This document shows, in pieces, positions 2,260 through 26,954 of a stretch of 30,383 nucleotides of DNA. The notes under the pieces were generated by a model, which worked only from the letters and a program-made list of their open reading frames with translations, searched no databases and was not told the origin of the DNA. Numbering within the stretch: position 1 is the first letter of the stretch; each line of letters starts with the position of its first letter. The stretch is from a virus, in IMG/VR virus record IMGVR_UViG_3300047491_000982, positions 1 to 30,383 of that record. One strand, given 5' to 3'. Made by a program: the position numbers and the translations under genes.

Positions 2260-2287
2260 TATACGTATAAAATCTAGAATATGTTAC
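2260..2287 (-). promoter_or_regulatory. Promoter-like element, TGTAAC-N16-CGTATA (copy 1)
   Basis: On the minus strand the -35-like box is complementary to 2282-2287 and the CGTATA box to 2260-2265, with exactly 16 nt between. It lies directly behind the stop codon of the gene at 2289 and 20 nt ahead of the start at 2239. It is one of 11 copies with identical spacing. Confidence 0.8.
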
Positions 2288-2288
2288 A

Positions 2289-2615
2289 TTAATTCTTGCA
2301 GATTTTGAAAAGCACAGGCAATCCACTTTCAGATACTGGTCTGTTTTCGTCAACAAAATATTCAGTCCCAAGTTCATCTAAATTAAAAGTAACCAATGTC
2401 ATGGTATCAATTTCAGTACCATCCTCAGTTACAATATATTCATCGTTATCAACAAGACCATAGAATATTTCATCATTTTCCTCACGTTTTCTTCCAGATG
2501 TATATGTTTCAGGAAGAAAACCAAGTTCTTTCAGATTTTCGATAATTCTGCCTTCACGTTTTTTATTAATTTTTTTGGCGTTATCACGTTGAATTTGAAT
2601 CCAGTCAGTTTTCAT
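2289..2615 (-). CDS. Unknown acidic 108-residue protein
   Basis: Starts MKTDWIQIQRDNAKKINKKR with a basic N-terminal helix, then becomes acidic with DNDEYIVTEDGTEIDTMTLV and DELGTEYFVDENRPVSESG. No signal peptide, membrane segment or known motif. Its stop codon (2289-2291) touches the promoter-like element for the next gene. Confidence 0.7.
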   Translation of the reverse strand: MKTDWIQIQRDNAKKINKKREGRIIENLKELGFLPETYTSGRKREENDEIFYGLVDNDEYIVTEDGTEIDTMTLVTFNLDELGTEYFVDENRPVSESGLPVLFKICKN

Positions 2616-2626
2616 ATATTTTTAAT

Positions 2627-2893
2627 TTAAAAATACATCCTTAGTTTTTTATGTGTTTTAAGTAGTTTCTTTTCCAACTTTTCAATTGAAAATTCTTTAT
2701 TTGAAACACATTCAGTTATTTTACAAACGGTTATCCATTTGCTTCTGCGTTTGAAGAAACAGTTGTATCTAACTAAATACTGTAATTCCAGTATAACAGT
2801 AACGTTATTTATGTTATCATTACATCCACCGTTTGGATTAATGTATTCGAAAATTCTGCTTCTGCTGTTTAAATCTTTAATTCTTATTGCCAT
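2627..2893 (-). CDS. Unknown 88-residue basic protein
   Basis: The preferred start is MAIRIKDLNSRSRIFEYINP at 2891-2893. A longer in-frame opening to 2980 adds a hydrophobic segment that runs through hairpin-rich and promoter-like sequence and looks spurious. The body has GGCNDNINNV and a basic patch (FFKRRSKW) and ends in a lysine-rich helix. No family recognised. A loose copy of the promoter element lies 9 nt upstream. Confidence 0.65.
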   Translation of the reverse strand: MAIRIKDLNSRSRIFEYINPNGGCNDNINNVTVILELQYLVRYNCFFKRRSKWITVCKITECVSNKEFSIEKLEKKLLKTHKKLRMYF

Positions 2894-2902
2894 ATTTTTA
2901 TG

Positions 2903-2932
2903 TATACGATTAGTCTGTATAAAAAAAGTCAC
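2903..2932 (-). promoter_or_regulatory. Degenerate copy of the promoter-like element
   Basis: The minus strand has CGTATA (complement of 2903-2908) preceded at 18 nt by GTGACT (complement of 2927-2932), instead of TGTAAC at 16 nt. The position, 9 nt ahead of the start at 2893, fits a promoter. The imperfect upstream box and spacing make it much weaker than the other 11 copies. Confidence 0.35.
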
Positions 2933-3273
2933 TTGATGATAAGGTGGTATAGATAAAGACAAATTCACCGACAAAAACACAGACCTCTCTCCACATCAAG
3001 GGCAAAGACAAATACTAAGTCTTGTTTGTGAACCAATTATCTCGAAAGTAACTTGTTTCACTACATGGTCTTTTTGTGAAAAGCCATAAAAAACTTTAGT
3101 TTTGTGGAAAGAGCGAGAAATGTGCCACTATGGCGAACCATAGTCTAGCGCATCATAAATTAACTTGTCGTTAAAGAATAAATTTCTTTATAGTATATTA
3201 TTTAGAACCTTATCACCAAGTGTGAAGAAAGATAGACTAGGCTTGTGCTTTGTCTATCTCTCACCTTAGTATT
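2933..3273. ncRNA. Gene-free hairpin-rich stretch, candidate structured RNA
   Basis: About 340 bases without a convincing ORF, in a genome where genes normally touch. Several simple hairpins follow one another: 3005-3023 (AAGAC/GTCTT), 3067-3085 (GG-CTTTT/AAAAG-CC with one bulge), 3090-3103 (AAAAC/GTTTT), 3127-3144 (perfect 7-bp stem ACTATGG/CCATAGT with a 4-nt loop) and 3230-3259 (8-bp stem). An outer 5-bp stem around the 3127-3144 hairpin (TGTGC/GCGCA) pairs with a G-U only on plus-strand RNA, so the strand is unclear. It could be an RNA gene, a long 3' untranslated region of the 3274-4203 gene, or a DNA-level site. Confidence 0.45.
3230..3259 (-). terminator. Possible terminator hairpin after the 309-residue gene
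   Basis: AGATAGAC at 3230-3237 pairs perfectly with GTCTATCT at 3252-3259, leaving a 14-nt loop. On the minus strand the stem begins about 14 nt after the stop codon at 3274 and is followed by TTCTTC. The stem is AT-rich and the T-run is short and interrupted, so it is a weak candidate. Confidence 0.35.
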
Positions 3274-4203: not shown

Positions 4204-4296
4204 GATTTTCAGTATTAAATTTTACAGTTATTATTTAATCAAATTTTCTTCGACAAATCTAATTCATTTTTTTATATCCTGCAAGAGTTTTTCAAA

Positions 4297-4641: not shown

Positions 4642-4644
4642 TTT

Positions 4645-4993: not shown

Positions 4994-5152
4994 TTAACAA
5001 TATGTGTAATACCATCCCAAGTTGTGATACTCAAGTAATTCAGGATATTTTTCCAAAAAACCATCAATCACTGGTTTTGCTTCTTCGTCATTCATATGAA
5101 ATGTTGCACAACGAATGTTTTCGATTATTTCTTCAAGTTGTTCAGTGCTCAT
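4994..5152 (-). CDS. Unknown 52-residue protein
   Basis: Begins MSTEQLEEIIENIRCATFHM and ends HNLGWYYTYC. The ATG at 5150-5152 overlaps the preceding stop as ATGA, and the gene fills the gap between two other genes exactly, which supports it as real. It is mostly acidic and helical. Function unknown. Confidence 0.65.
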   Translation of the reverse strand: MSTEQLEEIIENIRCATFHMNDEEAKPVIDGFLEKYPELLEYHNLGWYYTYC

Positions 5153-5445
5153 TTGAATTTGATTTTAATTGTATCGGTAGGTATGGTAGAATCCTCTAAC
5201 CAAGGTGATTTAGTCCATACAAACGTGCTATCGTTTATTTTTCTAATTCTTACATCACCATTGAGTGCATACACTTGTCCTTGAGCATAGCAATTTTCCA
5301 TTGCTTTCTTAACAGCAGTTGCAAGTTCATATGCTTCTTTACGAATTTGTTCATCCCTTTTTTCGCTGACTTTATATGCAACGAAAAATATTGCCAATAA
5401 GATAAAACATAAGATAATGAGTTGAAATTTTGCACTTCTATCCAT
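5149..5445 (-). CDS. Small membrane-anchored protein
   Basis: A 98-residue protein. Residues about 8-25 (LIILCFILLAIFFVAYKV) form one transmembrane segment near the N-terminus, followed by a basic and acidic helix (SEKRDEQIRKEAYELATAVK), so the C-terminal part probably lies on one side of the inner membrane. The C-terminus looks like beta strands (DSTFVWTKSPW). It sits behind promoter copy 2 (5469-5496) with a 23-nt leader. No family assigned. Confidence 0.75.
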   Translation of the reverse strand: MDRSAKFQLIILCFILLAIFFVAYKVSEKRDEQIRKEAYELATAVKKAMENCYAQGQVYALNGDVRIRKINDSTFVWTKSPWLEDSTIPTDTIKIKFK

Positions 5446-5468: not shown

Positions 5469-5496
5469 TATACGAAAGATAAGTTGAAAAGGTTAC
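5469..5496 (-). promoter_or_regulatory. Promoter-like element (copy 2)
   Basis: The minus strand has GTAACC opposite 5491-5496 and CGTATA opposite 5469-5474, extended to CGTATAAT, with 16 nt between. It lies in the clean 63-nt gap between the stop at 5509 and the start at 5445, so it is not constrained by coding sequence. Confidence 0.8.
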
Positions 5497-5508
5497 AGAA
5501 AAAGTAAA

Positions 5509-5938: not shown

Positions 5939-6096
5939 TTCAGGTATTTTCTTAAAAGTTTTTTTGCGTTTAACCTGTCTCTCTTTTTACTTTTAACAGT
6001 ACCGATTTCAACCTCCCACCAATTTACCCAACCTTTTCGTGGGTGATTATCGGTATAGTTGTAAAGCAACTTGTTTCTTAATCCGTATGGTTTCAT
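5935..6096 (-). CDS. Very basic 53-residue protein
   Basis: Starts MKPYGLRNKLLYNYTDNHPR and contains KGWVNWWEVEIG; the C-terminal 20 residues are almost all lysine, arginine or leucine (KSKKRDRLNAKKLLRKYLK). It exactly fills the gap between two genes, with a 1-nt overlap upstream (TAATG) and a 4-nt overlap downstream (ATGA), strong support despite its size. The high positive charge suggests nucleic-acid binding; this is inference. Confidence 0.7.
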   Translation of the reverse strand: MKPYGLRNKLLYNYTDNHPRKGWVNWWEVEIGTVKSKKRDRLNAKKLLRKYLK

Positions 6097-6626
6097 TATA
6101 CAAATGATGATTTCATGGTTCTGATTGCCTGAATTTCATCAGGTAATATCATTGCAGTAAAACCGCTTGATTGATAGAAATTAACCTCATCCCCATCTTC
6201 ATCATATTTGCCATCTTTTAATCTCTTACAAAAAACACGATGACCATCAGGATAATAATCATTAAACATTGCCATACCACCGCCTTCATAAGACGTTTTG
6301 ATTACAACGAATTCACCGCCTTCAAGAACAAATTCTTTTGGAGTGGGATTGGGAAGAATTGCATCGATGAATTTCGTTGCAGTTGCGTCAGACATTTTAT
6401 GTCCAAGACGAAAATCAAATGAATGAATAATGTCTTTCACCAAAGATTTTTTATCGGATTCAATATGCGTTCTATTGAAATGCCTTTCGCCAATTTTAAT
6501 CTCGTGATTGGTTAACTCATCGCTTAATGGTTTATTGCTATACACAAACATTGCAGGAATTTTTCCATACACTTTCATTCCATTTTCAAGTTTGATAACA
6601 TCACCTTCCTTCAGTAAATTTTTCAT
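6096..6626 (-). CDS. Unknown 176-residue protein
   Basis: Begins MKNLLKEGDVIKLENGMKVY, suggesting a small beta-barrel-like N-terminus (EGDVIKLENG-MKVYGKIP). A second beta-rich block occurs near residues 99-150 (EFVVIKTSYEGGGMAMFNDY, with PDGHRVFCKRLKDGKYDEDG). Short homologues with this KEGDVI start are common in large phages but have no known function. It is the last gene transcribed before promoter copy 3 upstream. Confidence 0.75.
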   Translation of the reverse strand: MKNLLKEGDVIKLENGMKVYGKIPAMFVYSNKPLSDELTNHEIKIGERHFNRTHIESDKKSLVKDIIHSFDFRLGHKMSDATATKFIDAILPNPTPKEFVLEGGEFVVIKTSYEGGGMAMFNDYYPDGHRVFCKRLKDGKYDEDGDEVNFYQSSGFTAMILPDEIQAIRTMKSSFV

Positions 6627-6652: not shown

Positions 6653-6680
6653 TATACGTAAATGAATTATAAATTGTTAC
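6653..6680 (-). promoter_or_regulatory. Promoter-like element (copy 3), overlaps the 3' end of the glycosylase gene
   Basis: The minus strand has GTAACA (opposite 6675-6680) then 16 nt then CGTATA (opposite 6653-6658). The upstream gene stops at 6667-6669, inside the element, so the -35-like box is coding sequence and spells the terminal residues CNN of that protein. It drives the gene starting at 6626. Confidence 0.8.
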
Positions 6681-7011
6681 AAATTAATTTTGCGCATTCA
6701 GGACATCTGCCAGTCAAATCTGCAATTGATATGTTAATATCAATTTTAGCAAATCTTTCGTTTGATTTTAAATGTGATAGGTCTGGTTGTGTGTATGGTG
6801 AGTTATGATTATAACCCCTGTTAAGCATTTCCGCAACTAGATCATCATGTCTTTTCTGCATACTTTCAGGTTCAATCTGAACGACTGGACTTATGCGTTT
6901 TGCAATGCTATGCTTCTTCTCAAAATTGTGTTTATGCTTGTGAATCTCATTGTGTTCACCAAGCAAATGATTTCTGCACAATAATTTCGGATCAACTCCC
7001 CACATTCTCAT
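6667..7011 (-). CDS. Pyrimidine-dimer DNA glycosylase (Pyr_excise / DenV-like)
   Basis: A 114-residue protein with the characteristic start MRMWGVDPKLLCRNHLLGEH followed by NEIHK. The block H15-LLGEHNE22 aligns with the HLMAEYRE segment of T4 endonuclease V, in which the last glutamate is catalytic. After a histidine/lysine-rich helix comes RHDDLVAEMLNRGYNHNSP, also typical of Pyr_excise proteins. The enzyme removes UV-induced pyrimidine dimers by N-glycosylase/AP-lyase action. The C-terminus has CPECAKLIC, a possible extra metal site. The ATG at 7009-7011 is chosen because it begins the family motif; the longer opening runs into promoter copy 4. Confidence 0.85.
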   Translation of the reverse strand: MRMWGVDPKLLCRNHLLGEHNEIHKHKHNFEKKHSIAKRISPVVQIEPESMQKRHDDLVAEMLNRGYNHNSPYTQPDLSHLKSNERFAKIDINISIADLTGRCPECAKLICNNL

Positions 7012-7041: not shown

Positions 7042-7069
7042 TATACGTAACAAATCAACTAAAGGTTAC
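7042..7069 (-). promoter_or_regulatory. Promoter-like element (copy 4), overlaps the stop of the upstream gene
   Basis: The minus strand has GTAACC opposite 7064-7069, 16 nt, then CGTATA opposite 7042-7047. The upstream gene ends at 7059-7061 inside the element; its last residues LICNL are encoded by TTAATTTGTAACCTT. It precedes the glycosylase start by 30 nt. Confidence 0.8.
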
Positions 7070-7607
7070 AAATTAATTGCTCATATTTATATTCAGTAAT
7101 TTGCATCTTATCATCAAGATAACCTACGATATTAACACTTGATTCACATTCCCATCCACCACTGTAATAGTCTTGGGTTGTTTCAAATACAACATCAACC
7201 ACCATATAGTAAGTATATGGCATTGAGTACCTTTTCATATCATCGTCAGTATGTGGCTTGAATACTGAGAGTAACTTTTTAAAATCATAATCATTGAATA
7301 AATCTTCAATACCAACATTTGAAATTTCTTCCTGCAAAATACTGTCAAACGTTCTTAAATTAAAAAGAAGACAATTTTTGGGGTTTTTAACATAGTCTAA
7401 GCCAACAAATTGAAGAAAATAGTCAGCATTCATTGGCTGATTATGTTGTCCCTCATTGGTATTAATCGTATACTCTGGAAGTATGTCCCCAATACTATTT
7501 GGTTTTTTTCTACCTTCTTTTAATTCAAAAATATAGTTTTCGGATAATTCATATACCTCTACCGCCAATAAACATCTTACTGTGCTTGTACCTTCTTTCC
7601 TTAACAT
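7059..7607 (-). CDS. Unknown 182-residue protein
   Basis: Starts MLRKEGTSTVRCLLAVEVYE. It has alternating strands and charged helices, including FNLRTFDSILQEEISNVGIE and MPYTYYMVVDVVFETTQDYY. No catalytic motif, signal peptide or membrane segment. It ends LICNL, nearly the same as the next gene's LICNNL, because both ends are part of the promoter-like element rather than because the proteins are related. Confidence 0.75.
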   Translation of the reverse strand: MLRKEGTSTVRCLLAVEVYELSENYIFELKEGRKKPNSIGDILPEYTINTNEGQHNQPMNADYFLQFVGLDYVKNPKNCLLFNLRTFDSILQEEISNVGIEDLFNDYDFKKLLSVFKPHTDDDMKRYSMPYTYYMVVDVVFETTQDYYSGGWECESSVNIVGYLDDKMQITEYKYEQLICNL

Positions 7608-9211: not shown

Positions 9212-9739
9212 TTAATCAAAATTTTTAAATTCTGACAAATCCCAACACTCGGCATAATCCAACAGATTATCAGGTGAACCAATGCATTTCATTTCGCCAA
9301 CCTCATCCCTGTTGGTCTTTTGTTCTTCCCAAATTCTATTGAGTTGGTCTTCGCTGAAGAAACCCATTGGAAATAATTGACGTGAAACCACATCCAATGT
9401 AATTAAGGTATTTTCAGGAAGTTTAGAATGTAAGTAGTATGCATGCATAACTGCACTACCTGCTGATAACAAGTGTTGTGCAATTGCAATGAATGCACCA
9501 AGACTTATTCTAAGTGTGGTCATGTGTTTCAATCTTGATAGAAAGACTTGCATTTGAAAACCTTCAAGCAATGGTTTGAAATGCTTAAATATTTCCGAAT
9601 TTTTATCGAGTTCGTAAATATCCGTACCAATTGCTTCGTCTTTTGACATCAATAGTTTCATAAAAACCATCATTTCATCACTATCCATTTCAGTGTGTGG
9701 AGTGTGCTTTTCAAAAATTTTTTTCAGTCTTTCTTTCAT
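9212..9739 (-). CDS. Unknown helical protein, 175 residues
   Basis: Starts MKERLKKIFEKHTPHTEMDS. It is mostly alpha-helical and contains an alanine-rich segment ISLGAFIAIAQHLLSAGSAV that could pack against a partner but is not long or hydrophobic enough to be a confident membrane segment. The C-terminus is acidic (WDLSEFKNFD). Family unknown. It follows promoter copy 5 with a 19-nt leader. Confidence 0.75.
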   Translation of the reverse strand: MKERLKKIFEKHTPHTEMDSDEMMVFMKLLMSKDEAIGTDIYELDKNSEIFKHFKPLLEGFQMQVFLSRLKHMTTLRISLGAFIAIAQHLLSAGSAVMHAYYLHSKLPENTLITLDVVSRQLFPMGFFSEDQLNRIWEEQKTNRDEVGEMKCIGSPDNLLDYAECWDLSEFKNFD

Positions 9740-9758: not shown

Positions 9759-9786
9759 TATACGTAAAGTGGAATGAATTTGTTAC
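9759..9786 (-). promoter_or_regulatory. Promoter-like element (copy 5), shares the upstream stop codon
   Basis: The minus strand has GTAACA opposite 9781-9786, 16 nt, then CGTATA opposite 9759-9764. The TAA at 9783-9785 that ends the upstream metalloprotease-like gene is the TAA inside the TGTAAC box. Confidence 0.8.
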
Positions 9787-10517
9787 ACGGCATTTTCAAT
9801 TCTTTTTAATTTAAAATTGTAAATTTTTTCTTTGACAAGATAATTAAAATATTTATAATACGCAGGTATTCTTTGAAAAAAATTCAACTCTTTATCAATA
9901 AAACGATCTCTGAAATCATAAAACAGTTGAAAAAAGTAAGGTAACTCTTTCATAATCAACATATGTGCATATCTATCAGCATCTTTTTCATCATGATCAC
10001 TTCCTTTTTCTTTTACTGCAAAATGATGCCCAAGTTCGTGAAAAAATGTAGAATAATAACTACCCATATCATTTAATCTCAAAGTATCAGTTAATAATAT
10101 TCTTGGATATTTATATTCTTCGATTGGAACATACTTTTCATTATTTCTTTTGCAGTATTCTTCGAACGTTATGGAATAATATTCTTCAATCTTGCGTCTT
10201 GATTCTATATATTCTTCCAATACTTTGGTATGAGTTCCCATATTAGCATCATGAATATAGATATATTTGCCAATTGCCCAATCATCTTCATTTGGAGTTT
10301 TTTTATTAATCTCTTTGGATGATTTGTAAAGCACAGTAATACCTTCTTCAGTACAAATTCTATCCAGTGTATCTTGGAGTAGTTTCATTATTAGTGGATG
10401 CTTTTTATATTTATAAAATATAAATGAAACTTCCAATTTCAACATCATAATTGCTAATAAAACGAATACAAATAAAATTAAAAGTATTATAAGCCATACG
10501 TTAATTAAAGTTCCCAT
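9783..10517 (-). CDS. Membrane-anchored HExxH metalloprotease-like protein
   Basis: A 244-residue protein. Residues about 5-30 are a strong transmembrane helix (VWLIILLILFVFVLLAIMML). The soluble domain contains FFHELGHHFAV with zinc motif HELGH at 160-164, followed by DHDEKDADRYAHML where E177 or a nearby Asp could be the third ligand, as in gluzincin/minigluzincin peptidases (M48, IrrE/ImmA-like architecture). It would sit at the inner membrane facing the cytoplasm if the N-terminus is an uncleaved anchor. Substrate unknown: cleaving a host repressor or membrane protein is possible but unproven. Confidence 0.75.
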   Translation of the reverse strand: MGTLINVWLIILLILFVFVLLAIMMLKLEVSFIFYKYKKHPLIMKLLQDTLDRICTEEGITVLYKSSKEINKKTPNEDDWAIGKYIYIHDANMGTHTKVLEEYIESRRKIEEYYSITFEEYCKRNNEKYVPIEEYKYPRILLTDTLRLNDMGSYYSTFFHELGHHFAVKEKGSDHDEKDADRYAHMLIMKELPYFFQLFYDFRDRFIDKELNFFQRIPAYYKYFNYLVKEKIYNFKLKRIENAV

Positions 10518-11011: not shown

Positions 11012-11563
11012 TTATTCAATTAAATCGTTAAACCATATGTAGTCATTCTGCGACTTATCGCCAGTGTTATTGTCACAGTAATAAAATTTTAAATACAAAT
11101 CTAAAATGTCTTCGTCAATTAATTTATTAATTAATCTGTTGGCACGTCTTTCTGCCTGAGACCAATCACCACACCTCTTACCTCTTGACCAAGCATTATA
11201 TGCATCGTCATGGAGTTCAATTACAGTGAGAACACCATCGCTAACTTGAAATTTCTCTGCAAAATTTCTTGCAATCATTCCATGATGATTATCACCAGTT
11301 TTGGGTTGATTACGATCTACCTGATGCTTGAAAGTATCATGCAACATCGCAATTAAACGCAAATCTTCATAATCTTCATCATCTTTGTAGTACTTGTTGA
11401 TGTTATCCAGTACCTCTTTTATGTGATAGATTACCTGTCCTTCAATATGTCCTTTTCTTGGTTGTCCCCAATTACATCCAATAATAAAATCTTCTTCATT
11501 GCAAATTGCAGTTTCAATTTCATTATTAGGCTTTATTATATTTAAAATTTCATGATTTTTCAT
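11012..11563 (-). CDS. HD-domain phosphohydrolase
   Basis: A 183-residue protein with the spaced metal ligands of the HD superfamily: H39 in KGHIEGQVIYHI, the HD pair H75-D76 in LIAMLHDTFKH, histidines 93-94 in GDNHHGMIARNF, and H118-D119 in VIELHDDAYN. These bind one or two metals and hydrolyse phosphoester bonds, typically of nucleotides or (p)ppGpp. With MazG, Nudix and DHFR nearby, a nucleotide or alarmone substrate is plausible but inferred. It overlaps the homing endonuclease end by 14 nt. Confidence 0.75.
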   Translation of the reverse strand: MKNHEILNIIKPNNEIETAICNEEDFIIGCNWGQPRKGHIEGQVIYHIKEVLDNINKYYKDDEDYEDLRLIAMLHDTFKHQVDRNQPKTGDNHHGMIARNFAEKFQVSDGVLTVIELHDDAYNAWSRGKRCGDWSQAERRANRLINKLIDEDILDLYLKFYYCDNNTGDKSQNDYIWFNDLIE

Positions 11564-12335: not shown

Positions 12336-12389
12336 ATTTAGTATGATATACTAATAAATACTTTCATTTCTTAAATTATCATACTAAAT
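12336..12389 (-). promoter_or_regulatory. 13-bp inverted repeat and palindrome ahead of the homing endonuclease, probable operator
   Basis: ATTTAGTATGATA (12336-12348) is a perfect inverted repeat of TATCATACTAAAT (12377-12389), separated by 28 nt. The first arm also forms a local palindrome TAGTAT-GAT-ATACTA (12338-12352). The GTATTTAT element lies between the arms. This is the architecture of an operator around a promoter; the same CATACTAAA half-site recurs at 16480-16488 before the second endonuclease unit. Confidence 0.6.
12354..12361 (-). promoter_or_regulatory. GTATTTAT element of the first homing endonuclease
   Basis: Minus-strand GTATTTAT lies 21 nt before the ATG at 12332 and is centred between the arms of the 13-bp inverted repeat, the position expected for a promoter under operator control. 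Confidence 0.45.
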
Positions 12390-13217: not shown

Positions 13218-13245
13218 GATACGAATAATGTTTATATTTTGTTAC
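13218..13245 (-). promoter_or_regulatory. Promoter-like element (copy 6), very short leader
   Basis: The minus strand has GTAACA opposite 13240-13245, 16 nt, then CGTATC opposite 13218-13223 (one base from consensus). The ATG at 13210 is only 7 nt away, so if transcription starts at the usual distance the mRNA would be almost leaderless. Confidence 0.75.
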
Positions 13246-13247
13246 AA

Positions 13248-15512: not shown

Positions 15513-16092
15513 CTGTAATTTTTTTACAATTATACGAATTCTTTTTCGATTTTGTTACATCAATTTTGCTTTTTAATTCAGCAATTTCCTTTTTTTGTGC
15601 TAAAACCTTCTCTTTCAGTGACCAAATTCTCATACAACCTAAACGTTCTATTTTTAATTGGTCATCAACGCTCAGTTTTTCACATTTGGAATTGATTTTT
15701 GCGTTCTTTACAATTCTGGCATAAATCCTTCCGTTTGCGTATCTGTCACAGATGATTATACCTGCATGTTCAGGAACTTCGTCTTTTACTTTATCGTATA
15801 ATTCTTTGGGAAATGCGTAATAAAATTCCTTGACATACTTGCTTTTGTGCTGATGCCATTTTTTAAAATCTGCTCTAAAATCGCTTACAGATATTTTAAT
15901 CTCAACTTCTTTAACCAAATTGCTTTTGGTTAAAACGAACAAATCCATCTCATGCCCAAAATGAAATCCCCATGAAATATTAGGAACAATTATGTGTGTC
16001 CTGATATTAAACATCTTAGCGACTGCAATTTCTATTTCAGCAGTGGAAATTGGTTTTGATTTAACTTCAGGTTCTTTTGTTTTTCTGCCCAT
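15499..16092 (-). CDS. MmcB-like PD-(D/E)XK nuclease-fold protein
   Basis: A 197-residue protein. The segment GHEMDLFVLTKSNLVKEVEI followed by KISVSDFRADFKKWHQHKSK contains the D...EIK core of PD-(D/E)XK nucleases and the SDFRAD motif seen in MmcB-type DNA-repair proteins; FYYAFPKEL and VPEHAGIIICDRY also fit that family. Residues 150-180 form a coiled coil with a basic tail. A role in DNA repair or nucleolytic processing is likely. The promoter of the next gene lies inside its 3' coding end, so residues DVTKSKKNSYN are partly dictated by the promoter sequence. Confidence 0.7.
   Translation of the reverse strand: MGRKTKEPEVKSKPISTAEIEIAVAKMFNIRTHIIVPNISWGFHFGHEMDLFVLTKSNLVKEVEIKISVSDFRADFKKWHQHKSKYVKEFYYAFPKELYDKVKDEVPEHAGIIICDRYANGRIYARIVKNAKINSKCEKLSVDDQLKIERLGCMRIWSLKEKVLAQKKEIAELKSKIDVTKSKKNSYNCKKITDGST
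15531..15558 (-). promoter_or_regulatory. Promoter-like element (copy 7), fully inside coding sequence
   Basis: The minus strand has GTAACA opposite 15553-15558, 16 nt, then CGTATA opposite 15531-15536 (CGTATAATT). It lies within the last 20 codons of the MmcB-like gene and 18 nt before the Nudix start at 15512. Confidence 0.8.
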
Positions 16093-16448: not shown

Positions 16449-16476
16449 TATACGAATTCTTTTTCGGTTTTGTTAC
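16449..16476 (-). promoter_or_regulatory. Promoter-like element (copy 8), divergent from the endonuclease unit
   Basis: The minus strand has GTAACA opposite 16471-16476, 16 nt, then CGTATA opposite 16449-16454, extended to CGTATAAT. It faces leftward to the P-loop gene and is back-to-back with the plus-strand promoter region of the ribbon-helix-helix/endonuclease unit. Confidence 0.8.
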
Positions 16477-16478
16477 AA

Positions 16479-16514
16479 ACATACTAAACTTTTTTGAAAC
16501 TGCAACGTATTTAT
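16479..16514 (+). promoter_or_regulatory. CATACTAAA site and GTATTTAT element before the plus-strand unit
   Basis: ACATACTAAAC at 16479-16489 matches the CATACTAAA half-site of the inverted repeat at the other endonuclease. GTATTTAT at 16507-16514 lies 22 nt before the ATG at 16537. The spacing between the two elements (about 17 nt) is similar at both loci. Operator and promoter roles are inferred. Confidence 0.5.
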
Positions 16515-16536: not shown

Positions 16537-16713
16537 ATGAAGAAAGAAAAAAAAATTTATTACACTTTCAGAATTCATTCTGAACAATTAGAATATCTTA
16601 GAAATAAAGCAATAACTGAATTCACAACAGTTACTCAATATCTCCTTGATTTAGTTAGCAAAGATATGAAAGAAAATAATGAGAAACAAATTAAATCTAA
16701 ATGTAATGAATAA
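16537..16713 (+). CDS. Ribbon-helix-helix DNA-binding protein, 58 residues
   Basis: Reads MKKEKKIYYTFRIHSEQLEY, then LRNKAITEFTTVTQYLLDLV. The pattern of a basic N-terminus, an alternating strand (IYYTFRI) and two helices separated by TEFTTVT is that of the CopG/Arc/MetJ ribbon-helix-helix fold, which dimerises and binds DNA with the strand. It overlaps the GIY-YIG endonuclease start by 8 nt, so the two are translated together. It is the likely regulator of this unit, and perhaps of the other endonuclease, through the shared CATACTAAA sites. Confidence 0.75.
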   Translation: MKKEKKIYYTFRIHSEQLEYLRNKAITEFTTVTQYLLDLVSKDMKENNEKQIKSKCNE

Positions 16714-20673: not shown

Positions 20674-21588
20674 TTATCCTTTTCTAATTTCAGCCAATTT
20701 CTTCTTACCAGTCATCCACTCACGGATTTCTTCAACAGTGTACCAACCGAAATTATTATCATCGTCACTGTAATTAACCCAATACATGATATCATACTTG
20801 GTATTATATTGTTTCTTATTTTCTTCACGTTTCTCCGCATCTTCATAGTTAATCCACTTCGGTGAACATGCCATGAAATATTTTGCACCCCTATATCCGT
20901 TCTTATTGCCATGCTTTTGAAGAATTTTCTTCATGCCAATTTTTTCTTCATAATCTTCACGGTCATAATATTCCTTATCGGCACTATACATCAAATCCAA
21001 TGTTTCTTGCGGAATTCTGTCTCTAATTAAAAGAGACATGGAAGAACCTGCAAACGGATTCATTGCTCTCAGATTGACAACGGCAATGGTTACGTTTTTA
21101 TTCAAAAAAGCCTGATATAGTTCCCTAAGATATTCGACTTCTGTCGCTCCCATGACTGCCACTCCGAAACTGCTTTCATCCCATGCAGTCAAAACATTAT
21201 CTTTGTCTTTTCGAAATACGTACTCTGAACCTTTTTTTATATCATCTGCTTTTATTTTTTCGTAATGTAAAAAATCTTCTTTATACTTATCAAAGTTATG
21301 AGGAATTTTAGTCTCTTTTTCAGGATTCCACATTGATACTCTGTCCATATAGAGAATCGCAAACTTTTTCTTTTTGAACGTTTCCTCAAAAAAATGGACA
21401 GGAGGTACGTTTGTAATGCTTCTGCATTCAACACCCATATTCTTATTGGTTGATTCGGGAATTCCACATATCCTTTTAATACCTGCAATACCCCATTCAT
21501 GTTCAGCACAATAGTCATAACCAAGTGAAATGCCAACAAATTTGTCGTCAACTACAATAAGACCTTCATCATTACTTGCTTTTCTCAT
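20674..21588 (-). CDS. Unknown 304-residue protein
   Basis: Starts MRKASNDEGLIVVDDKFVGI, then SLGYDYCAEHEWGIAGIKRI. Other recognisable blocks are LTAWDESSFGVAVMGATEVE and VNLRAMNPFAGSSMSLLIRD near the middle, and YTVEEIREWMTGKKK at the end. Similar GYDYCxEHEWG starts occur in other large phages, to my recollection, with no function assigned. No nuclease, kinase or protease motif is evident. It lies behind promoter copy 9 with a 19-nt leader. Confidence 0.75.
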   Translation of the reverse strand: MRKASNDEGLIVVDDKFVGISLGYDYCAEHEWGIAGIKRICGIPESTNKNMGVECRSITNVPPVHFFEETFKKKKFAILYMDRVSMWNPEKETKIPHNFDKYKEDFLHYEKIKADDIKKGSEYVFRKDKDNVLTAWDESSFGVAVMGATEVEYLRELYQAFLNKNVTIAVVNLRAMNPFAGSSMSLLIRDRIPQETLDLMYSADKEYYDREDYEEKIGMKKILQKHGNKNGYRGAKYFMACSPKWINYEDAEKREENKKQYNTKYDIMYWVNYSDDDNNFGWYTVEEIREWMTGKKKLAEIRKG

Positions 21589-21607: not shown

Positions 21608-21635
21608 TATACGAAGAATATTTGAAATATGTTAC
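21608..21635 (-). promoter_or_regulatory. Promoter-like element (copy 9)
   Basis: The minus strand has GTAACA opposite 21630-21635, 16 nt, then CGTATA opposite 21608-21613 (CGTATAATT). It lies between the corrinoid adenosyltransferase stop at 21643 and the start at 21588. Confidence 0.8.
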
Positions 21636-21642
21636 AAACTGA

Positions 21643-22219: not shown

Positions 22220-23647
22220 TTAATATCTCCACCTATTTCTATTTTCCATATTATTTTCGTCCCAAATATCATTATTGATTACCCAAAGATTGACACCAAT
22301 TGAAATTATCAATGCGATGATGAAAACAATTACCTTTGCTAATGTCGATGGTTCAACATCAATATAATCAAATTCTTTGAAACTTCTTCTTTGGTACTTA
22401 TTCAGATTTTTGTCAAGATAATCGTAATATTCATTCCAAGTCTGTTCATTAAGCACTGGATATTTTGATTTAACCCTGATGGTTGTATCAACACTACTCA
22501 CTTGTTTTGGTACTGGTAATACATTTGGTAACTTATCACCTGCCTTACCCAATATTCTTTGCTTTGTTTTCTTATCAACTGGTAATACTTGCGGTAATTG
22601 CTTCTTAACCACACTATCCTTATATGTATAGAGTTCCAGTACCTTATTCTTCGCTTCCACAGTCAAAACGTCTGAAAGTGCCCAAGAAAAAGCATGTGAC
22701 CATTGTATTTCATTTCCTTTCTTACCAATACAAACCACAAGTTCATTCATATTGCCTTTAACCCAATAATTCTCTTGTGAATAAGCAATTGACATTGGCT
22801 TATTTTCAAATACCAATACCCAAAGTCTTAATTGATTGCTTACACCAAATTTACCATTCAGCCTTTTGAATTTCTCCTGAATGTCTTTAGATACATTGCC
22901 ACCCAATATGGTTGGATATTCCAAACCAATTTGATTGTTACTGCCAAAGAAACCTGATTTATATTCGGGATATTTAAACAGACCCAAAGTATCTGCTTGT
23001 TTATCGGTTATCAACGAAATGTTGAATATGGTCAAATCTGATGCTTTGATACGATTTTCATAGGAATGCTGACTAACATATGGTTTGCGAGTATTGTCGC
23101 TACCATCCCATTTTGTTTCATAAACATAGGATATTAGACCAACACGTTTTCCTTCAAATTTAGTACCTCTACTGCCACTACATCTATCATTTGGGGCATA
23201 ATTTCTTCTCTCTTTAATAATGTGTTTTCCAGTATTAAATTGACGAATAATTTCCTCATATTGACATTCAGAAATATTAATTACTTCACCAAGATTGGTT
23301 TTTATCCACCAACAGGGGTCAACATCCTCTTGATGCGAACAGTCATAGGTTTCGGTGCACCATTGAGTATTTCCTTTGCTATCACTGCCACAAGCATATG
23401 TTCTCGTACAAGTTTCGTGCTTCCAATAATTGTATGGCTCTTCTTCGTATGCAGAGACAACACTTGAACCCCAATATTCATCAAACTGAACCGCAACGTG
23501 GTCAATAACCAATTTGCTAATAACGATTGAAATCAGCACAACTGCGATAGGAACGAAAAATTCCCACCATGCATATTCACGCTTGTTGAAATAATAAAAA
23601 ATTCCAGTAACTATTAGTGGAATTAGTAATGCAAAGTAAATACTCAT
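22220..23647 (-). CDS. Large cysteine-rich membrane protein, 475 residues
   Basis: Two N-terminal hydrophobic helices (residues about 2-19, SIYFALLIPLIVTGIFYY, and 30-50, FFVPIAVVLISIVISKLVI) and one near the C-terminus (LAKVIVFIIALIISIGVNLW) anchor it. Between them is a domain with many Cys and Trp residues (CTRTYACGSDSKGNTQWCTE and TYDCSHQEDVDPCWWIKT), probably disulfide-linked or metal-binding. The downstream part has repeats of the type KKQLPQVLPV / DKLPNVLPVPKQV. Similar large membrane proteins occur in tailed phages with no assigned function. It is the first gene behind promoter copy 10. Confidence 0.75.
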   Translation of the reverse strand: MSIYFALLIPLIVTGIFYYFNKREYAWWEFFVPIAVVLISIVISKLVIDHVAVQFDEYWGSSVVSAYEEEPYNYWKHETCTRTYACGSDSKGNTQWCTETYDCSHQEDVDPCWWIKTNLGEVINISECQYEEIIRQFNTGKHIIKERRNYAPNDRCSGSRGTKFEGKRVGLISYVYETKWDGSDNTRKPYVSQHSYENRIKASDLTIFNISLITDKQADTLGLFKYPEYKSGFFGSNNQIGLEYPTILGGNVSKDIQEKFKRLNGKFGVSNQLRLWVLVFENKPMSIAYSQENYWVKGNMNELVVCIGKKGNEIQWSHAFSWALSDVLTVEAKNKVLELYTYKDSVVKKQLPQVLPVDKKTKQRILGKAGDKLPNVLPVPKQVSSVDTTIRVKSKYPVLNEQTWNEYYDYLDKNLNKYQRRSFKEFDYIDVEPSTLAKVIVFIIALIISIGVNLWVINNDIWDENNMENRNRWRY

Positions 23648-23662: not shown

Positions 23663-23690
23663 TATACGTTAATGGGATTTGAATTGTTAC
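23663..23690 (-). promoter_or_regulatory. Promoter-like element (copy 10), shares the upstream stop codon
   Basis: The minus strand has GTAACA opposite 23685-23690, 16 nt, then CGTATA opposite 23663-23668. The TAA of the upstream gene (23687-23689) is the TAA of the TGTAAC box. The start at 23647 is 15 nt away. Confidence 0.8.
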
Positions 23691-23956
23691 ATCAATTTTT
23701 CTTTTTCAGCCAAATATTTATTCAATGCTTCACATGCTTTTGGATTATTCTTCAGATATTCTTCAAAGGCTATAATTGCCTTATTTAGTTCGTCAAAGTC
23801 TTTTTGAATTTTAGCAAGATTATCTTCTTGTTTTTTAAATTCTTTTTGCCATTTTTCGTCGAAATTATCAATATCTTCCTTTATTTTCTTTTCGGTTTTT
23901 TCAACAATTTCCAGTTGCTCTTTCTGGTTTGTGAATATGTTAAATATACTAAACAT
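23687..23956 (-). CDS. Coiled-coil protein, 89 residues
   Basis: After MFSIFNIFTNQKEQLEIVEK the sequence is a long charged helix (TEKKIKEDIDNFDEKWQKEF and KKQEDNLAKIQKDFDELNKA) with a heptad-like pattern, probably a dimeric coiled coil. The C-terminal part has NNPKACEALNKYLAEKEKLM. No enzyme motif. Confidence 0.75.
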   Translation of the reverse strand: MFSIFNIFTNQKEQLEIVEKTEKKIKEDIDNFDEKWQKEFKKQEDNLAKIQKDFDELNKAIIAFEEYLKNNPKACEALNKYLAEKEKLM

Positions 23957-23958
23957 GA

Positions 23959-24432
23959 TTAATTATTTCTAATTTTTACAATCTCAATCATTTTATTAAT
24001 CGCACCTAATTCAGCATCTTCTTGTGTGGGATATTCGCCATTATCGCCATACATGTACGTACCATCAGATATTTCAAACCATTCAGCAACAGTATGGTCT
24101 TTAATCCAATTTTCTTTTGGCAGATACCAAAGAACTTGCCAGTTGAAATTAATTCCTTCTGTATAAAATTCAGGTCGGCTATGCACATACAAACCATGAA
24201 CATCCCTAAACCAACGCAATGTTTGTGAAATTGTAGGTGCAGCATATGTATACGGCAACTTAATATCACTATTATGCATTATTTGAGTTTCAATACTACT
24301 CCATTCCCTATCGGGATTGAAATATCTCCTGAGTTTCTTGTTTATGGCATAAAAATAAGCACATGGTTCATTAAAACCAAGTGCTTTTAATTCCTCTGCC
24401 ATTTGAAGTGTGACAAAATCTTTTTCGTTCAT
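23959..24432 (-). CDS. Conserved phage/prophage protein, 157 residues
   Basis: The first ATG is at 24430-24432 (MNEKDFVTLQMAEELKALGF); a two-codon longer opening would use a TTG. The succession LKALGFNEPCAYFYAINKKL, YAAPTISQTLRWFRDVHGLY and YPTQEDAELGAINKMIEIVK matches a protein common in Bacteroidetes prophages and phages, in which the same LGF(D/N)EPC, APT..QA.RWFR...GLY and T.EEAE...L.K.IEI blocks occur. Its function is unknown. Confidence 0.8.
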   Translation of the reverse strand: MNEKDFVTLQMAEELKALGFNEPCAYFYAINKKLRRYFNPDREWSSIETQIMHNSDIKLPYTYAAPTISQTLRWFRDVHGLYVHSRPEFYTEGINFNWQVLWYLPKENWIKDHTVAEWFEISDGTYMYGDNGEYPTQEDAELGAINKMIEIVKIRNN

Positions 24433-24434
24433 AG

Positions 24435-24701: not shown

Positions 24702-24840
24702 AATTTTTCGATTTTCCGTAAAGAAAAATAAGAATACTAAGGAAAAAAATACCTGATGCAACTGCATAATGTTTTTCAAAAAACACTATCCACCCTACAA
24801 TTAGGAATATCCAACCAATAACTATTAATTTATTTTTCAT
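24694..24840 (-). CDS. Small protein with two transmembrane segments, 48 residues
   Basis: Reads MKNKLIVIGWIFLIVGWIVF, then a short FEKHYAVASG loop and a second hydrophobic helix IFFLSILIFLYG. It ends at 24694, overlapping the next start by 8 nt. It is the first gene after the tRNA locus on this strand. Function unknown. Confidence 0.6.
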   Translation of the reverse strand: MKNKLIVIGWIFLIVGWIVFFEKHYAVASGIFFLSILIFLYGKSKNYE

Positions 24841-24856
24841 AATTATTTTAATTTAG

Positions 24857-24931
24857 TAGCGAAGGATGGATTCGAACCATCATTCCATCAGGTACTAACC
24901 CCCAATATGTTACCAATTACACCACCTCGCT
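24857..24931 (-). tRNA. tRNA gene with abnormal anticodon arm
   Basis: A 75-nt cloverleaf. The acceptor stem AGCGAGG/CTTCGCT (24925-24931 with 24858-24864) and T arm GATGG-TTCGAAT-CCATC are good. The D arm is GTGT-AATTGGTA-ACAT. The anticodon arm should be 5+7+5 but fits only as ATTGG with a 10-nt loop (GGGTTAGTAC) and CTGAT, or as a 6-bp stem with an 8-nt loop. U33 is not in a normal place, so the anticodon cannot be read safely: UUA, UAG or AGU are possible. Confidence 0.7.
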
Positions 24932-24941
24932 AGATATTAAG

Positions 24942-25060
24942 TAGTCAGGACAGGATTCAAACCTGCACGAAAGCCACATTTTACTCTTTCCCCCTTGCAC
25001 GTGCCATTTGTCGCCACTATGTGGAGGCTGGGGAGCGTCTATCAATTCCGCCACCTGACT
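24942..25060 (-). tRNA. Leucine/serine-type tRNA gene with about 29 extra bases in the anticodon loop
   Basis: A 119-nt gene. The acceptor stem AGTCAGG/CCTGACT (25054-25060 with 24943-24949), the T arm GCAGG-TTTGAAT-CCTGT and the D arm GCG-GAATTGATAGA-CGC, of leucine type, are clear. A variable arm GAAAG/CTTTC is present. Between TCCCC and GGGGA (anticodon stem) there are 36 nt instead of 7, including CCAC-ATA-GTGG and the palindrome GCACGTGC. This may be a small intron-like insert, a decayed tRNA, or a functional non-standard RNA. No anticodon can be assigned. Confidence 0.6.
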
Positions 25061-25071
25061 TATATAAGCAA

Positions 25072-25175
25072 GGTTTAACTCAAAGATTTATGAGTTGCTC
25101 AGAGGTTTCGTAACATGTAGCCACAATACTGCATCATCCTACTAATCTGACTTCTTCCTCTTATGTTGTTAAACC
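25072..25175. ncRNA. Possible small structured RNA between tRNA genes
   Basis: GGTTTAAC at 25072-25079 and GTTAAACC at 25168-25175 are an 8-bp inverted repeat bracketing about 88 nt; inside, AACTCA/TGAGTT and AGAGG/CCTCT can pair. It lies in the gap between the second and third tRNA-like genes and may be an RNA element of its own. It has no T arm, so it is not a standard tRNA. Confidence 0.35.
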
Positions 25176-25179
25176 AGTG

Positions 25180-25348
25180 TAGTCAGGACAGGGATCGAAC
25201 CTGTATGTAATTTTTGTATCACCTGATATCAACCCATGTTAACGCAAGAATCGAACTTGCCTGAAACTATTACGTTCACCCAAAATAAACAGATCGATTA
25301 ATTTCTGCTTACTAAATTAGGCGTGTCTACCATTTCCACCACCCGACT
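25180..25348 (-). tRNA. Composite leucine-type tRNA with a second T arm inside
   Basis: The outer ends form a full tRNA: acceptor AGTCGGG (25342-25348) pairs with CCTGACT (25181-25187); D arm GTG-GAAATGGTAGA-CAC is leucine type; T arm ACAGG-TTCGATC-CCTGT is good. Inside are a 5' anticodon half CCTAATTTAG, a 26-nt insert with hairpin AGCAGA/TCTGTT, and a 3' half TTGGG; then a complete second T arm GCAAG-TTCGATT-CTTGC (25244-25260) followed by GTTAACA (25237-25243). The partner of GTTAACA may be TGCTAAC (25351-25357, one mismatch). So two tRNAs appear interleaved or recombined. Confidence 0.5.
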
Positions 25349-25357
25349 ATGTTAGCA

Positions 25358-25779
25358 CCCTCTCTTATTTTCTTACCCATTTAATTCCTGCTGAACTTAT
25401 CCGAGTTTCTGTAAACTGAATTACATTCAAGGGTACAGGATTAAGAGTTAGGGTCACGATGATTAAGGCTTACCTATCTGTCCTTTGCGATATCTCATAC
25501 TCCAGAGTTGGTTATAATCATCTTGCTGAGAACTCATTCGTGTTGTAGTGCATTTTGGTATTTCATCTGAAATCCACTCTCCGTTATTCCTTTCTCAAGG
25601 GAACAACACGTATAGGATTACTCCACTAAGTCTTACATATATGCCTGTAAGGGCGAACATTACTTAATATCCTGTTAATTCAGGACTATCATCTTTATGC
25701 AATGTTTACTATTTACACCAACGCAATTGTTGGGATTATTTCATTGCAAGGGGTCAATGTTTAGCCTATCTGTTGTTTT
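25358..25779 (-). ncRNA. About 420-nt gene-free structured region
   Basis: No ORF of interest. Several strong hairpins: 25583-25607 (GTTGTTCC/GGAATAAC, with a G-U on the minus strand, suggesting minus-strand RNA), 25632-25651 (CTTACA/TGTAAG), 25670-25685 (TCCTG/CAGGA), 25718-25733 (CCAAC/GTTGG) and an enclosing 7-bp stem TGCAATG/CATTGCA (25698-25704 with 25742-25748). It lies just ahead of the tRNA genes on the minus strand and may be a long non-coding RNA or a processed leader. Confidence 0.5.
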
Positions 25780-26049
25780 TTATTTCAATTCATGTGGTTT
25801 TACAAGAACAGTATCACCCTCACTAAATGCACGTGATGTACTCCATATGTAACTAACATCATCTTTTATTTTTTTCACTTTGAATTTAGTAAAAACTTCA
25901 CCACTTGATACTTTTTTAATCAAAACAACCTTCACTGGATTTGCAATTGCACCTGAAAGAATAATGGCAAAAAGTATTATACTGAGTGCTATTACAATAA
26001 TTCCCAAAGCATAATCACTAGCAGTAGCGTTAGAATTTTTTACTATCAT
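25780..26049 (-). CDS. Small membrane protein, 89 residues
   Basis: Starts MIVKNSNATASDYALGIIVI. Residues about 13-33 (ALGIIVIALSIILFAIILSG) form one transmembrane helix, followed by a small beta domain VKVVLIKKVSSGEVFTKFKV ending DTVLVKPHELK. It lies 1 nt from the LemA-like gene, so the two probably act together at the membrane. A longer opening overlaps the LemA gene and is discarded. Confidence 0.7.
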   Translation of the reverse strand: MIVKNSNATASDYALGIIVIALSIILFAIILSGAIANPVKVVLIKKVSSGEVFTKFKVKKIKDDVSYIWSTSRAFSEGDTVLVKPHELK

Positions 26050-26050
26050 T

Positions 26051-26599
26051 TTATTTCTTTTCAAGCAAATCACGATTGTCTTCGCCAGTAGCATATGCTT
26101 CTTTGGTCTGTGCTGATGTAACTAACTTAACATCAAAGGCAGGTCTTCCACTAAGAATCATACTATTTGGAAATGTAGAGCATAAATTTCTATGTGTTCG
26201 ATTAATGTCAAGTAGTTTCTTTTGTTCGACAGTAAATCCTTCACGACTTCCTTCAATAGTGTTCATCAATTTAGCATATAGGCTTGGGTCAAAAGTTGGA
26301 TTACTTTCTTGAATCCATTTCATCAGTGTTTCCTTACCTGCATTGCCATCATTTCCGTAACGAGCATCCATCATCCCAACGTAGATTTCCCTGAAACCTT
26401 CTTTGTATTGGTCAGTGACATTTGCTTCATCTTTGATTGTTTTCCACATTTTGTCAAAAACAATTTCGCAATTTTTCTGTTGAGCATTAAACTCATTTCT
26501 AATTAAAACCTCTTTGTTGCTCAAGCCAACTGCCCAAACTGCACCCCAAATCAATAATACTAATACAACACCCAATCCAATTAAAGTACCTGTTTTCAT
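26051..26599 (-). CDS. LemA-like membrane protein
   Basis: A 182-residue protein with an N-terminal transmembrane helix (TLIGLGVVLVLLIWGAVWAV), then NKEVLIRNEFNAQQKNCEIV as the start of the LemA helical bundle. The C-terminal part LLDINRTHRNLCSTFPNSMI with RPAFDVKLVTSAQT matches the FPN...I...F end of LemA proteins. LemA proteins are membrane proteins of unclear role with the N-terminus outside. Here the bundle is near normal length. It pairs with the small membrane gene at 25780-26049. Confidence 0.75.
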   Translation of the reverse strand: MKTGTLIGLGVVLVLLIWGAVWAVGLSNKEVLIRNEFNAQQKNCEIVFDKMWKTIKDEANVTDQYKEGFREIYVGMMDARYGNDGNAGKETLMKWIQESNPTFDPSLYAKLMNTIEGSREGFTVEQKKLLDINRTHRNLCSTFPNSMILSGRPAFDVKLVTSAQTKEAYATGEDNRDLLEKK

Positions 26600-26627
26600 T
26601 TTTTAAATTTATTAATTTATTAATTAT

Positions 26628-26909
26628 TTATAGTTTTTTATATAATTCTAATCCTTTCAATCCATTATTACTATAATGTGAGAATCCTTTTCCTTCAAAC
26701 TTTTCAACTATCAAATCATATGTTTTTTTTTCACAAAATATTTTCTGTGGTTCAGTAAATCTGAGAAAATACGCATATGTATCCAAATCATTAATTCTTT
26801 TGATTTCTGCCTCCATGACATCAATGCTTTCTGAAATAAGAAAGCCATCAGGTTTTGAACCCCAACCTTCTTCATATTCAGTGCATTCCGAAATAAATAA
26901 TTCTTTCAT
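26628..26909 (-). CDS. Unknown 93-residue protein
   Basis: Starts MKELFISECTEYEEGWGSKP. It contains DGFLISESIDVMEAEIKRIN and ends in a helix plus NGLKGLELYKKL. A small alpha/beta protein; no motif recognised. It lies behind promoter copy 11 with a 17-nt leader. Confidence 0.7.
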   Translation of the reverse strand: MKELFISECTEYEEGWGSKPDGFLISESIDVMEAEIKRINDLDTYAYFLRFTEPQKIFCEKKTYDLIVEKFEGKGFSHYSNNGLKGLELYKKL

Positions 26910-26926
26910 GATATTGTTTTTCTTAT

Positions 26927-26954
26927 TATACGAAACAAAGATATAAAAAGTTAC
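26927..26954 (-). promoter_or_regulatory. Promoter-like element (copy 11), shares the upstream stop codon
   Basis: The minus strand has GTAACT opposite 26949-26954, 16 nt, then CGTATA opposite 26927-26932 (CGTATAATAA). The TAA ending the upstream gene (26951-26953) is the TAA of the TGTAAC box. Confidence 0.8.

Follow-up and report, generated by a model that had tools for sequence, protein, structure and literature searches.

Candidate ECF-type promoters and two phage sigma factors in a group of putative Bacteroidota jumbo phages

Introduction

The IMG/VR virus record IMGVR_UViG_3300047491_000982, whose full 30,383 nt are called here the window, carries eleven two-box elements, TGTAAC followed by CGTATA, each given below as 29 nt on the minus strand. 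Judged from sequence comparison, these elements are very probably middle-type promoters of Bacteroidota jumbo phages, read by the host core RNA polymerase associated with a phage-encoded sigma factor of the extracytoplasmic function (ECF) type, here named SigA. The comparative support for such a phage-encoded promoter system of ECF type is good. A 327,676-bp jumbo-phage contig, IMGVR_UViG_3300042261_001312 (hereafter G001), contains the window, which aligns in reverse orientation to its bases 269189-299571 with 99.99% identity and 3 mismatches.

In the proposed mechanism, SigA would be made early, in some phages at least from a host-type promoter, and would then activate its own cluster as well as the block of replication and metabolism genes in the window. 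Region 4 of SigA would bind TGTAAC(A/C)TTT and region 2 would melt CGTATA, transcription starting about 6-9 nt past CGTATA and giving very short leaders. Later, a second phage ECF sigma factor, SigB, would read AGTATTTATA promoters of virion genes.

Phage ECF sigma factors are already known, from phages 7-11 and phiEco32, and the system is of a known kind. New here are two ECF sigma factors with separate motifs in one jumbo-phage group, as well as natural variants of spacer and box. Neither an ECF pair nor such a motif in Bacteroidota phages was met in the accessible part of the published literature, bioRxiv and most subscription journals lying outside the search. Reviews of jumbo phages name sigma genes and, in the parts available, no ECF type (PMC7824862, PMC13282480). 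For giant phages of a phylum with non-textbook promoters, the present analysis yields a promoter map of the whole genome and proposes a candidate reader. With two candidate sigma-promoter pairs and the natural variants of spacer and -35 box, the specificity of sigma factors for promoters can be tested directly in vitro. In Bacteroides and Flavobacterium, the pairs could find use as orthogonal parts for gene expression.

The element in the window and in its parent contig

A preliminary description, made from the letters of the window alone, had listed eleven copies of the element. All eleven are present at the places given, every one on the minus strand (Table 1). The 16-nt spacing that it assigned to them has to be corrected: the gap between TGTAAC and CGTATA is 17 nt, and neither an exact nor a one-mismatch site with N16 occurs in the window. 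The coordinates had also missed the first T, each element being 29 nt long (e.g. 2260-2288). TGTAAC is exact in 11/11 sites, CGTATA in ten and CGTATAAT in eight; the lone -10 deviation is CGTATC at 13218. A minus-strand gene does follow 7-66 nt downstream in all cases, as an ATG-opened open reading frame (ORF) of 68-475 amino acids (aa). The pattern is indeed too regular for chance, with 11 sites at one mismatch or less against 0.12 expected. None of 100 dinucleotide shuffles of the window reached 11 sites (maximum 2), and the plus strand has zero elements at the same threshold.

The mRNA behind the element 13218..13246 is predicted to be leaderless or nearly so, because the starts of phage 7-11 lie 6-9 bp from its element (PMC8948821). 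The elements 15531-15559 and 16449-16477 have 16 of 17 spacer bases identical and a common A/T-rich stretch just downstream, and their farther-upstream sequences differ; they are perhaps a copied promoter cassette.

In G001 as a whole, exact TGTAAC-N17-CGTATA is found 45 times and the backward control pattern not at all; 41 of the 45 sites are intergenic, as against 11% of random places. The matrix scan that had been suggested to check the element was carried out with a position weight matrix built from the 11 window sites. It gave 34 matches in the rest of G001 at scores of 20 or more, 33 of them intergenic. A same-strand start lies within 150 nt of 23, the opposite-strand version of the test giving 0, and five column-permuted matrices yielded 0-1 matches in entire G001. 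The sites are thus not spread randomly over both orientations and inside genes. Since the genes of G001 come from a simple in-house caller, some distances to short genes may have been missed.

The 60 sites of G001 with at most one mismatch show preferences beyond the two boxes: T in 43, 47 and 50 of them at the second to fourth positions past the -35 word, T in 50 two bases ahead of CGTATA, and A in 38-40 at 15-18 bases upstream. These flanking columns played no part in site picking and are the sole free evidence in the logo. In G001:797-10444 (minus strand), 17 exact sites occupy 10 kb, some without a called ORF start within 100 nt; the latter perhaps serve very small genes or small RNAs.

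The case for promoters is made from sequence only, which would leave room for another regular element, such as operator or packaging sites. Such a reading is extremely improbable in view of the strict strand agreement with the downstream gene, the two fixed boxes, the position of the window sites mostly 15-30 nt from start codons, and the fit to a known sigma consensus.

Promoter class

By its layout, the element appears to be an ECF-type promoter and not a sigma70/TATAAT one. The extended -10 of sigma70 type proposed earlier gives way to a -10 box CGTATA with its leading CG, a -35 box TGTAAC, often followed by (A/C)TTT, and a spacer of 16-17 nt, which is the layout of SigW promoters. An AAC-type -35 and a CGT-type -10 are accordingly found 16-17 nt apart. 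The SigW consensus is TGAAAC-N16,17-CGTA(T), and BldN sites read CGTAACN16CGTTGA (PMC2375139). Bacteroidetes are described as devoid of the classical sigma70 and its -10/-35 boxes, so a TATAAT box would have no obvious host reader (PMC7366714).

The elements are also distinct, as had been noted, from the host TTTG/TANNTTTG type. Among the 45 exact sites of G001, three contain CGTATATTTG and the other 42 have no such word in that register; a host TANNTTTG promoter is rejected for these 42. In the window, the CGTATATTTG of element 2260..2288 also matches the host TANNTTTG word.

As for the reader, either a phage sigma factor or an altered host polymerase had been envisaged. Two sigma genes are present on the parent contig, outside the window, in line with the first proposal. 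The second is not needed, because the RNA polymerase beta-prime domain PF00623 was found in 0/12 phage records (14/14 control genomes were positive; other polymerase types were not searched).

T4 middle promoters have a box plus TATAAT layout. This resemblance, along with the T4-like genes of the phage (rIIA, rIIB, Dda-like helicase), could evoke a MotA-like activator bound at TGTAAC with host sigma-A at TATAAT. We regard this arrangement as very improbable: the leading CG is part of the top word (CGTAT) of a motif-free search, the spacer and words suit an ECF promoter, and a matching sigma gene exists. Moreover, the host sigma reads TANNTTTG (PMC7366714).

Conservation across related contigs

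Twelve large phage contigs were analysed, G001 and 11 others. Nine of the twelve initially came to attention by the motif or by a gene of the window, and G022, G029 and G032 by SigB only. The pattern scan gave at least 118 stretches, chance matches among them, and was used only for finding contigs; other records in which the exact sites were counted, mostly with 0-3 of them, stand outside the 12-contig analysis.

When two-box words upstream of genes were searched without any prior motif, the element ranked first in 11 of the 12 contigs. The top words of G017 and G032 are its inner part (AACAT...GTATA or CGTAT), with few copies in G017. The top element of G029 is TGCAATA-N16-CGTATA, with 12 TGCAAT-N16 sites on the contig. 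The spacer is either 16 or 17 nt, remaining lengths in the 13-20 range giving 0-1 sites (exact sites with spacers 16/17: G001 0/45; G007 0/20; G012 9/17; G005 24/14; G010 14/6; G006 17/9; G009 43/2; G017 4/6; G011 57/1; G022 25/0; G032 29/0). Over the 12 contigs, exact TGYAAY-N16/17-CGTATA amounts to 361 sites. Nearly all are intergenic (347), and 294 lie within 150 nt upstream of a same-strand start, against 18 in the opposite-strand test.

The SigA alignment, used as a query against the collection, gave no conserved stretch, and four single SigA proteins retrieved no contig beyond their own and those encoding an identical protein. SigA was therefore unsuited to an unbiased survey. SigB took its place, and 20 records were picked from 37 SigB loci for pattern counts. 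TGYAAY-N16 sites are found in 14 of the 20 (145 sites against 4 for the backward control; four of these records hold one site each) and TGTAAC-N17 sites in six, G024, G025 and G026 having neither. The 20 records are not all independent, since several bear near-identical SigB genes; those outside the 12 contigs served for pattern and family counts only.

Two further phages, PTm1 and cr10_1, were fetched as outside tests. The Tenacibaculum jumbo phage PTm1 has no match to the SigA or SigB model (other sigma types were not searched for) and no TGTAAC-N15..18-CGTATA. Its gene-upstream regions show GTATTTAT, the late-type word described below, 0 times in sense and twice in antisense; AGTATTTATA occurs 6 times against 5 for the backward word, i.e. 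at control level. PTm1 is rich in another word, TATATTTG, with 35 sense and 3 antisense copies in upstream regions. One review groups it with phages having other sigma types (PMC7824862). The uncultured crAss-like phage cr10_1 encodes, at 23703-24266 (minus strand), an ECF sigma factor that scores 129 bits with the SigA model.

SigA, the candidate reader

Sigma70 region 2 was matched in 10 of the first 20 records examined, and two sigma families are outstanding, SigA and SigB. SigA of G001 is a 262-aa protein encoded beyond the window (G001:10693-11481, minus strand). It matches Pfam Sigma70_r2 and r4_2 above cut-off and no further sigma region, and it scores 82.2 bits with TIGR02937 (sigma70-ECF, NCBI ECF superfamily; cut-off 42.9). 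About 65 additional N-terminal residues have no family match. The 11 SigA proteins span 169-262 aa; this small size and, in G001 SigA, the presence of regions 2 and 4 only are characters of the ECF class. Among proteins of solved structure, SigW is the best match to the SigA alignment (E 1.5e-31). A structure model of middling quality (mean predicted local distance difference test score, pLDDT, 77.8; predicted template-modelling score, pTM, 0.37) retrieved 10 matches at E <= 0.001 in a fold search, all ECF sigma factors. Its region 4 superposes on the SigR, SigE-DNA and SigW-DNA domains with target template-modelling (TM) scores of 0.75-0.84 (SigR 0.84).

SigA heads a promoter cluster in 11/11 contigs: within 20 kb, 6 same-strand sites lie upstream of it and 157 downstream. 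The first site is at 1.5 kb or less from the SigA start in nine of the 11 (2.6 kb in G012, 7.4 kb in G007). G029 has two sigma genes besides SigB, and the one located 556 nt before the first site was counted as SigA. Sigma gene and sites are found together on 11 of the 12 analysed contigs, the exception being G010.

A TTG-N17..23-TANNTTTG pattern precedes SigA in G001, G007, G009, G017 and G029; this would fit an early expression driven by the host sigma, if not as a general rule. Host-type promoters mapped over G001 (22 same-strand, 11 opposite) are weakly separated from chance. In G001, G009 and G017, the 150 nt upstream of the sigma gene contain a shared stretch similar to TTATTTAGAATGA-ATAAATT.

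Ten of the 11 SigA proteins have a V-K pair in region 4, where the G029 protein has V-L. We take the position of this pair to be that of the recognition helix which, in SigE structures, contacts the -35 DNA. G029 is the sole analysed phage with a changed -35 box (TGCAAT) and the sole one whose SigA has no such lysine.

Bacteroidetes hold an arsenal of ECF sigma factors (PMC7366714) and the box is near the cellular SigW and BldN sites (PMC2375139). A host ECF sigma factor, captured by the phage, might then read the promoters, SigA having another job. This is unlikely, given the phage ECF gene at the head of the promoter cluster in 11/11 contigs, the lack of such sites in PTm1, which has no match to these sigma models, and the joint change of box and phage sigma in G029.

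Several results nonetheless weigh against SigA as the reader of these elements. G010 has 20 exact sites, and no SigA was found on its 246-kb contig; the gene may lie outside the contig, because the record is linear. In some contigs the head-of-cluster counts are limited by the contig end, which lies 4 kb upstream of the SigA start in G007 and 11 kb upstream in G029. A promoter ahead of their own gene (autoregulation) is usual for bacterial ECF sigma factors, though not required; it is not seen here, because no exact SigA-type site lies within 160 nt upstream of any of the 11 SigA genes. Nor is GTATTTAT found in that interval (0/11), and the host-type pattern is limited to 5/11. Whole-chain TM scores of the SigA model, by query, are 0.22-0.27 for the top 10 matches, single domains alone superposing well. 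The covariation of lysine and box is a single case, and it remains one because a scan for other phages with TGCAATATTT-N12-CGTATA brought out no second phage with a changed box (22 stretches, with more than one match only in G029, 7 in 5 stretches). Five contigs mix both spacers (at least 4 sites of each length). The 12 word positions of the G001 logo are conserved through site selection itself. Finally, cr10_1 has a related ECF sigma factor and none of the sites; an ECF sigma factor alone thus does not imply the TGTAAC-CGTATA motif.

SigB and the late-type motif

Once regions with SigA-type sites are removed, GTATTTAT is the commonest 8-mer upstream of G001 genes (60 sense, 10 antisense), and it is one of the two most numerous in each of the other 11 contigs. 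AGTATTTATA outnumbers the backward word in 12/12 contigs, with 82-100% of its copies intergenic (33/35 in G001, against 3/7 for the backward word). Among the 87 intergenic GTATTTAT sites of G001 within 150 nt of a start, 56 stand 14-24 nt before it.

The two motifs occupy different parts of the contig: 75 of these 87 late-type sites are within 20-260 kb, and 50 of the 60 SigA-type sites (one mismatch or less) are outside that stretch; three genes bear both types upstream. The genes that follow also differ in content. Of 85 genes behind late-type sites, 20 were scanned, mostly large ones, and gave terminase, portal, tail sheath and two virion proteins, as well as ribonucleotide reductase, an exonuclease, a Mom-like/homing endonuclease fusion and an HNH-type homing endonuclease; ten had no family and one a weak match of unknown function. 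Ten of the 40 genes behind SigA-type sites were scanned, giving rIIA, rIIB, two endonucleases, an endolysin-like and a kinase-like protein, two proteins of unknown function and two without family.

SigB, which goes together with AGTATTTATA, would be its reader. The word exceeds its backward version in 20/20 SigB records, narrowly in some (8 vs 6 in G040), and its count is 0 in G003, where the search found no sigma region. G039 has a SigB relative (28% identity), no second sigma found on the contig, and 35 AGTATTTATA sites for 1 TGTAAC-N17 and 0 TGYAAY-N16 sites. Two SigB relatives were found in GTDB genomes: the first, at 43%, lies on a 19-kb contig of a metagenome-assembled genome (MAG) from Bacteroidota, and the second, weak and partial, in a Flavobacteriales MAG. 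They give no more than a hint of the host, which may belong to the Bacteroidota.

Could the roles be exchanged, SigB reading the TGTAAC-CGTATA promoters and SigA the late ones? Both ECF sigma factors occupy the same genomes, and G010 has sites and SigB with no SigA found on the contig. Such an exchange is quite unlikely: region 4 of SigB is almost unaltered in G029 despite the changed box, the site counts of G039 go the other way, the cluster is headed by SigA and not SigB, and it is the SigA alignment that has SigW as its best match of solved structure, SigB not having been put to that search.

With SigA on the TGTAAC-CGTATA promoters, we somewhat favor, for this group of Bacteroidota jumbo phages, a three-step scheme running from host sigma-A to SigA (TGTAAC-N16/17-CGTATA) and then to SigB (AGTATTTATA, late). 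Two ECF sigma factors would replace the MotA/gp55 logic of T4-type phages, and the -35 code of SigA would have been rewritten in nature at least once along with its recognition helix, TGTAAC having become TGCAAT in G029.

Other features of the window

A family scan of 10 window proteins gave, among the matches, a methyltransferase-like protein, a Dda-like helicase, an ATP-dependent DNA ligase, an adenylosuccinate-synthetase relative and two GIY-YIG endonucleases. Megablast of window 3000-24000 against 50,697 phage records returned no near match. Jumbo phages of Tenacibaculum and Prevotella encode distant relatives of one protein, that of 22220-23647.

Both GIY-YIG genes sit behind late-type motifs within the SigA-type block, as if they carried their own late promoters. 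Behind the plus-strand motif 16507-16514 a short ORF of 58 aa intervenes, which overlaps the start of the endonuclease ORF 16679-17536. The window coordinates of the GTATTTAT sites were converted from G001 by the window-G001 alignment.

At Rfam gathering scores, the window contains nothing besides a tRNA, a tRNA-Leu gene at 24856-24931 (minus strand). Upstream of it, 25055-25696, about 0.6 kb, has no ORF of 40 aa or more. The adenylosuccinate-synthetase relative (29279-30280, minus strand, 333 aa) matches phrog_1211 ('2-aminooxy adenylosuccinate synthetase'), and its listed solved relatives carry the name adenylosuccinate synthetases. A PurZ-like role in 2-aminoadenine DNA is possible.

Table 1. 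Candidate promoter elements of the window and the genes that follow them
Element	Position	Strand	Distance to start (nt)	Downstream gene	G001 position
TGTAAC-N17-CGTATA	2260..2288	-	20 (ATG)	ORF 2033-2239 (68 aa)	
TGTAAC-N17-CGTATAAT	5469..5497	-	23 (ATG)	5149-5445	
TGTAAC-N17-CGTATAAT	6653..6681	-	26 (ATG)	6096-6626	
TGTAAC-N17-CGTATAAT	7042..7070	-	30 (ATG)	6667-7011	
TGTAAC-N17-CGTATA	9759..9787	-	19 (ATG)	9212-9739	
TGTAAC-N17-CGTATC (one mismatch)	13218..13246	-	7 (ATG)	12887-13210	
TGTAAC-N17-CGTATAAT	15531..15559	-	18 (ATG)	14907-15512	
TGTAAC-N17-CGTATAAT	16449..16477	-	66 (ATG)	16092-16382	
TGTAAC-N17-CGTATAAT	21608..21636	-	19 (ATG)	20674-21588	
TGTAAC-N17-CGTATAAT	23663..23691	-	15 (ATG)	22220-23647 (phrog_2087, unknown function)	
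TGTAAC-N17-CGTATAAT	26927..26955	-	17 (ATG)	26628-26909	
GTATTTAT (late-type)	211..218	-	17	gene running past window start	G001:299354
GTATTTAT (late-type)	12354..12361	-	21	GIY-YIG homing endonuclease gene 11550-12332	G001:287211
GTATTTAT (late-type)	16507..16514	+	22	58-aa ORF 16537-16713	G001:283058

Comparison with known systems

Group 2 jumbo phages have sigma factors and no RNA polymerase (PMC7824862, PMC13282480). Like the phages described here, they are large and are thought to redirect the host polymerase by a sigma factor of their own; their sigma factors, however, are described as being of a minimal helix-turn-helix or RpoD-like form. The word ECF is absent from the main texts of both reviews, and the portions examined give no promoter. 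PTm1 is assigned to Group 2, yet has no match to either sigma model and no SigA-type sites.

In phage phiEco32, gp36 reads tAATGTAtA (PMC8948821, PMC7881722). It is likewise a phage ECF-type sigma factor with promoters ahead of middle and late genes. The difference lies in the promoter, which has a single element and no -35 box, and in the sigma factor, which is said to have no region 4 homology.

SigW of Bacillus shares with the phage element 5 of 6 bases of the -35 box, the CGTA(T) -10 and both spacer lengths (PMC2375139). It is, however, a cellular stress sigma factor, solved with its anti-sigma RsiW, and the third base of its -35 box is A where the phage has T.

The closest tested precedent is phage 7-11, whose sigma factor gp47 reads GTAAtg-(16)-aCTA with the host RNA polymerase (PMC8948821). 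There, a sigma factor annotated as ECF-like was shown experimentally to work with the host polymerase on a bipartite promoter with GTAA at -35 and a 16-nt gap. On the other hand, 7-11 is an 89,916-bp Salmonella phage with eight promoters reported, of late class, and its -10 is aCTA and not CGTATA. With the SigA model, gp47 scores 49 bits, where the 12 source proteins of the model score 192-267 and the SigB paralogues 50-79, which makes it a distant relative of SigA; it is not listed with the SigB model. By this score test SigA would not be an orthologue of gp47, yet the phage system described here appears to work like that of phage 7-11.

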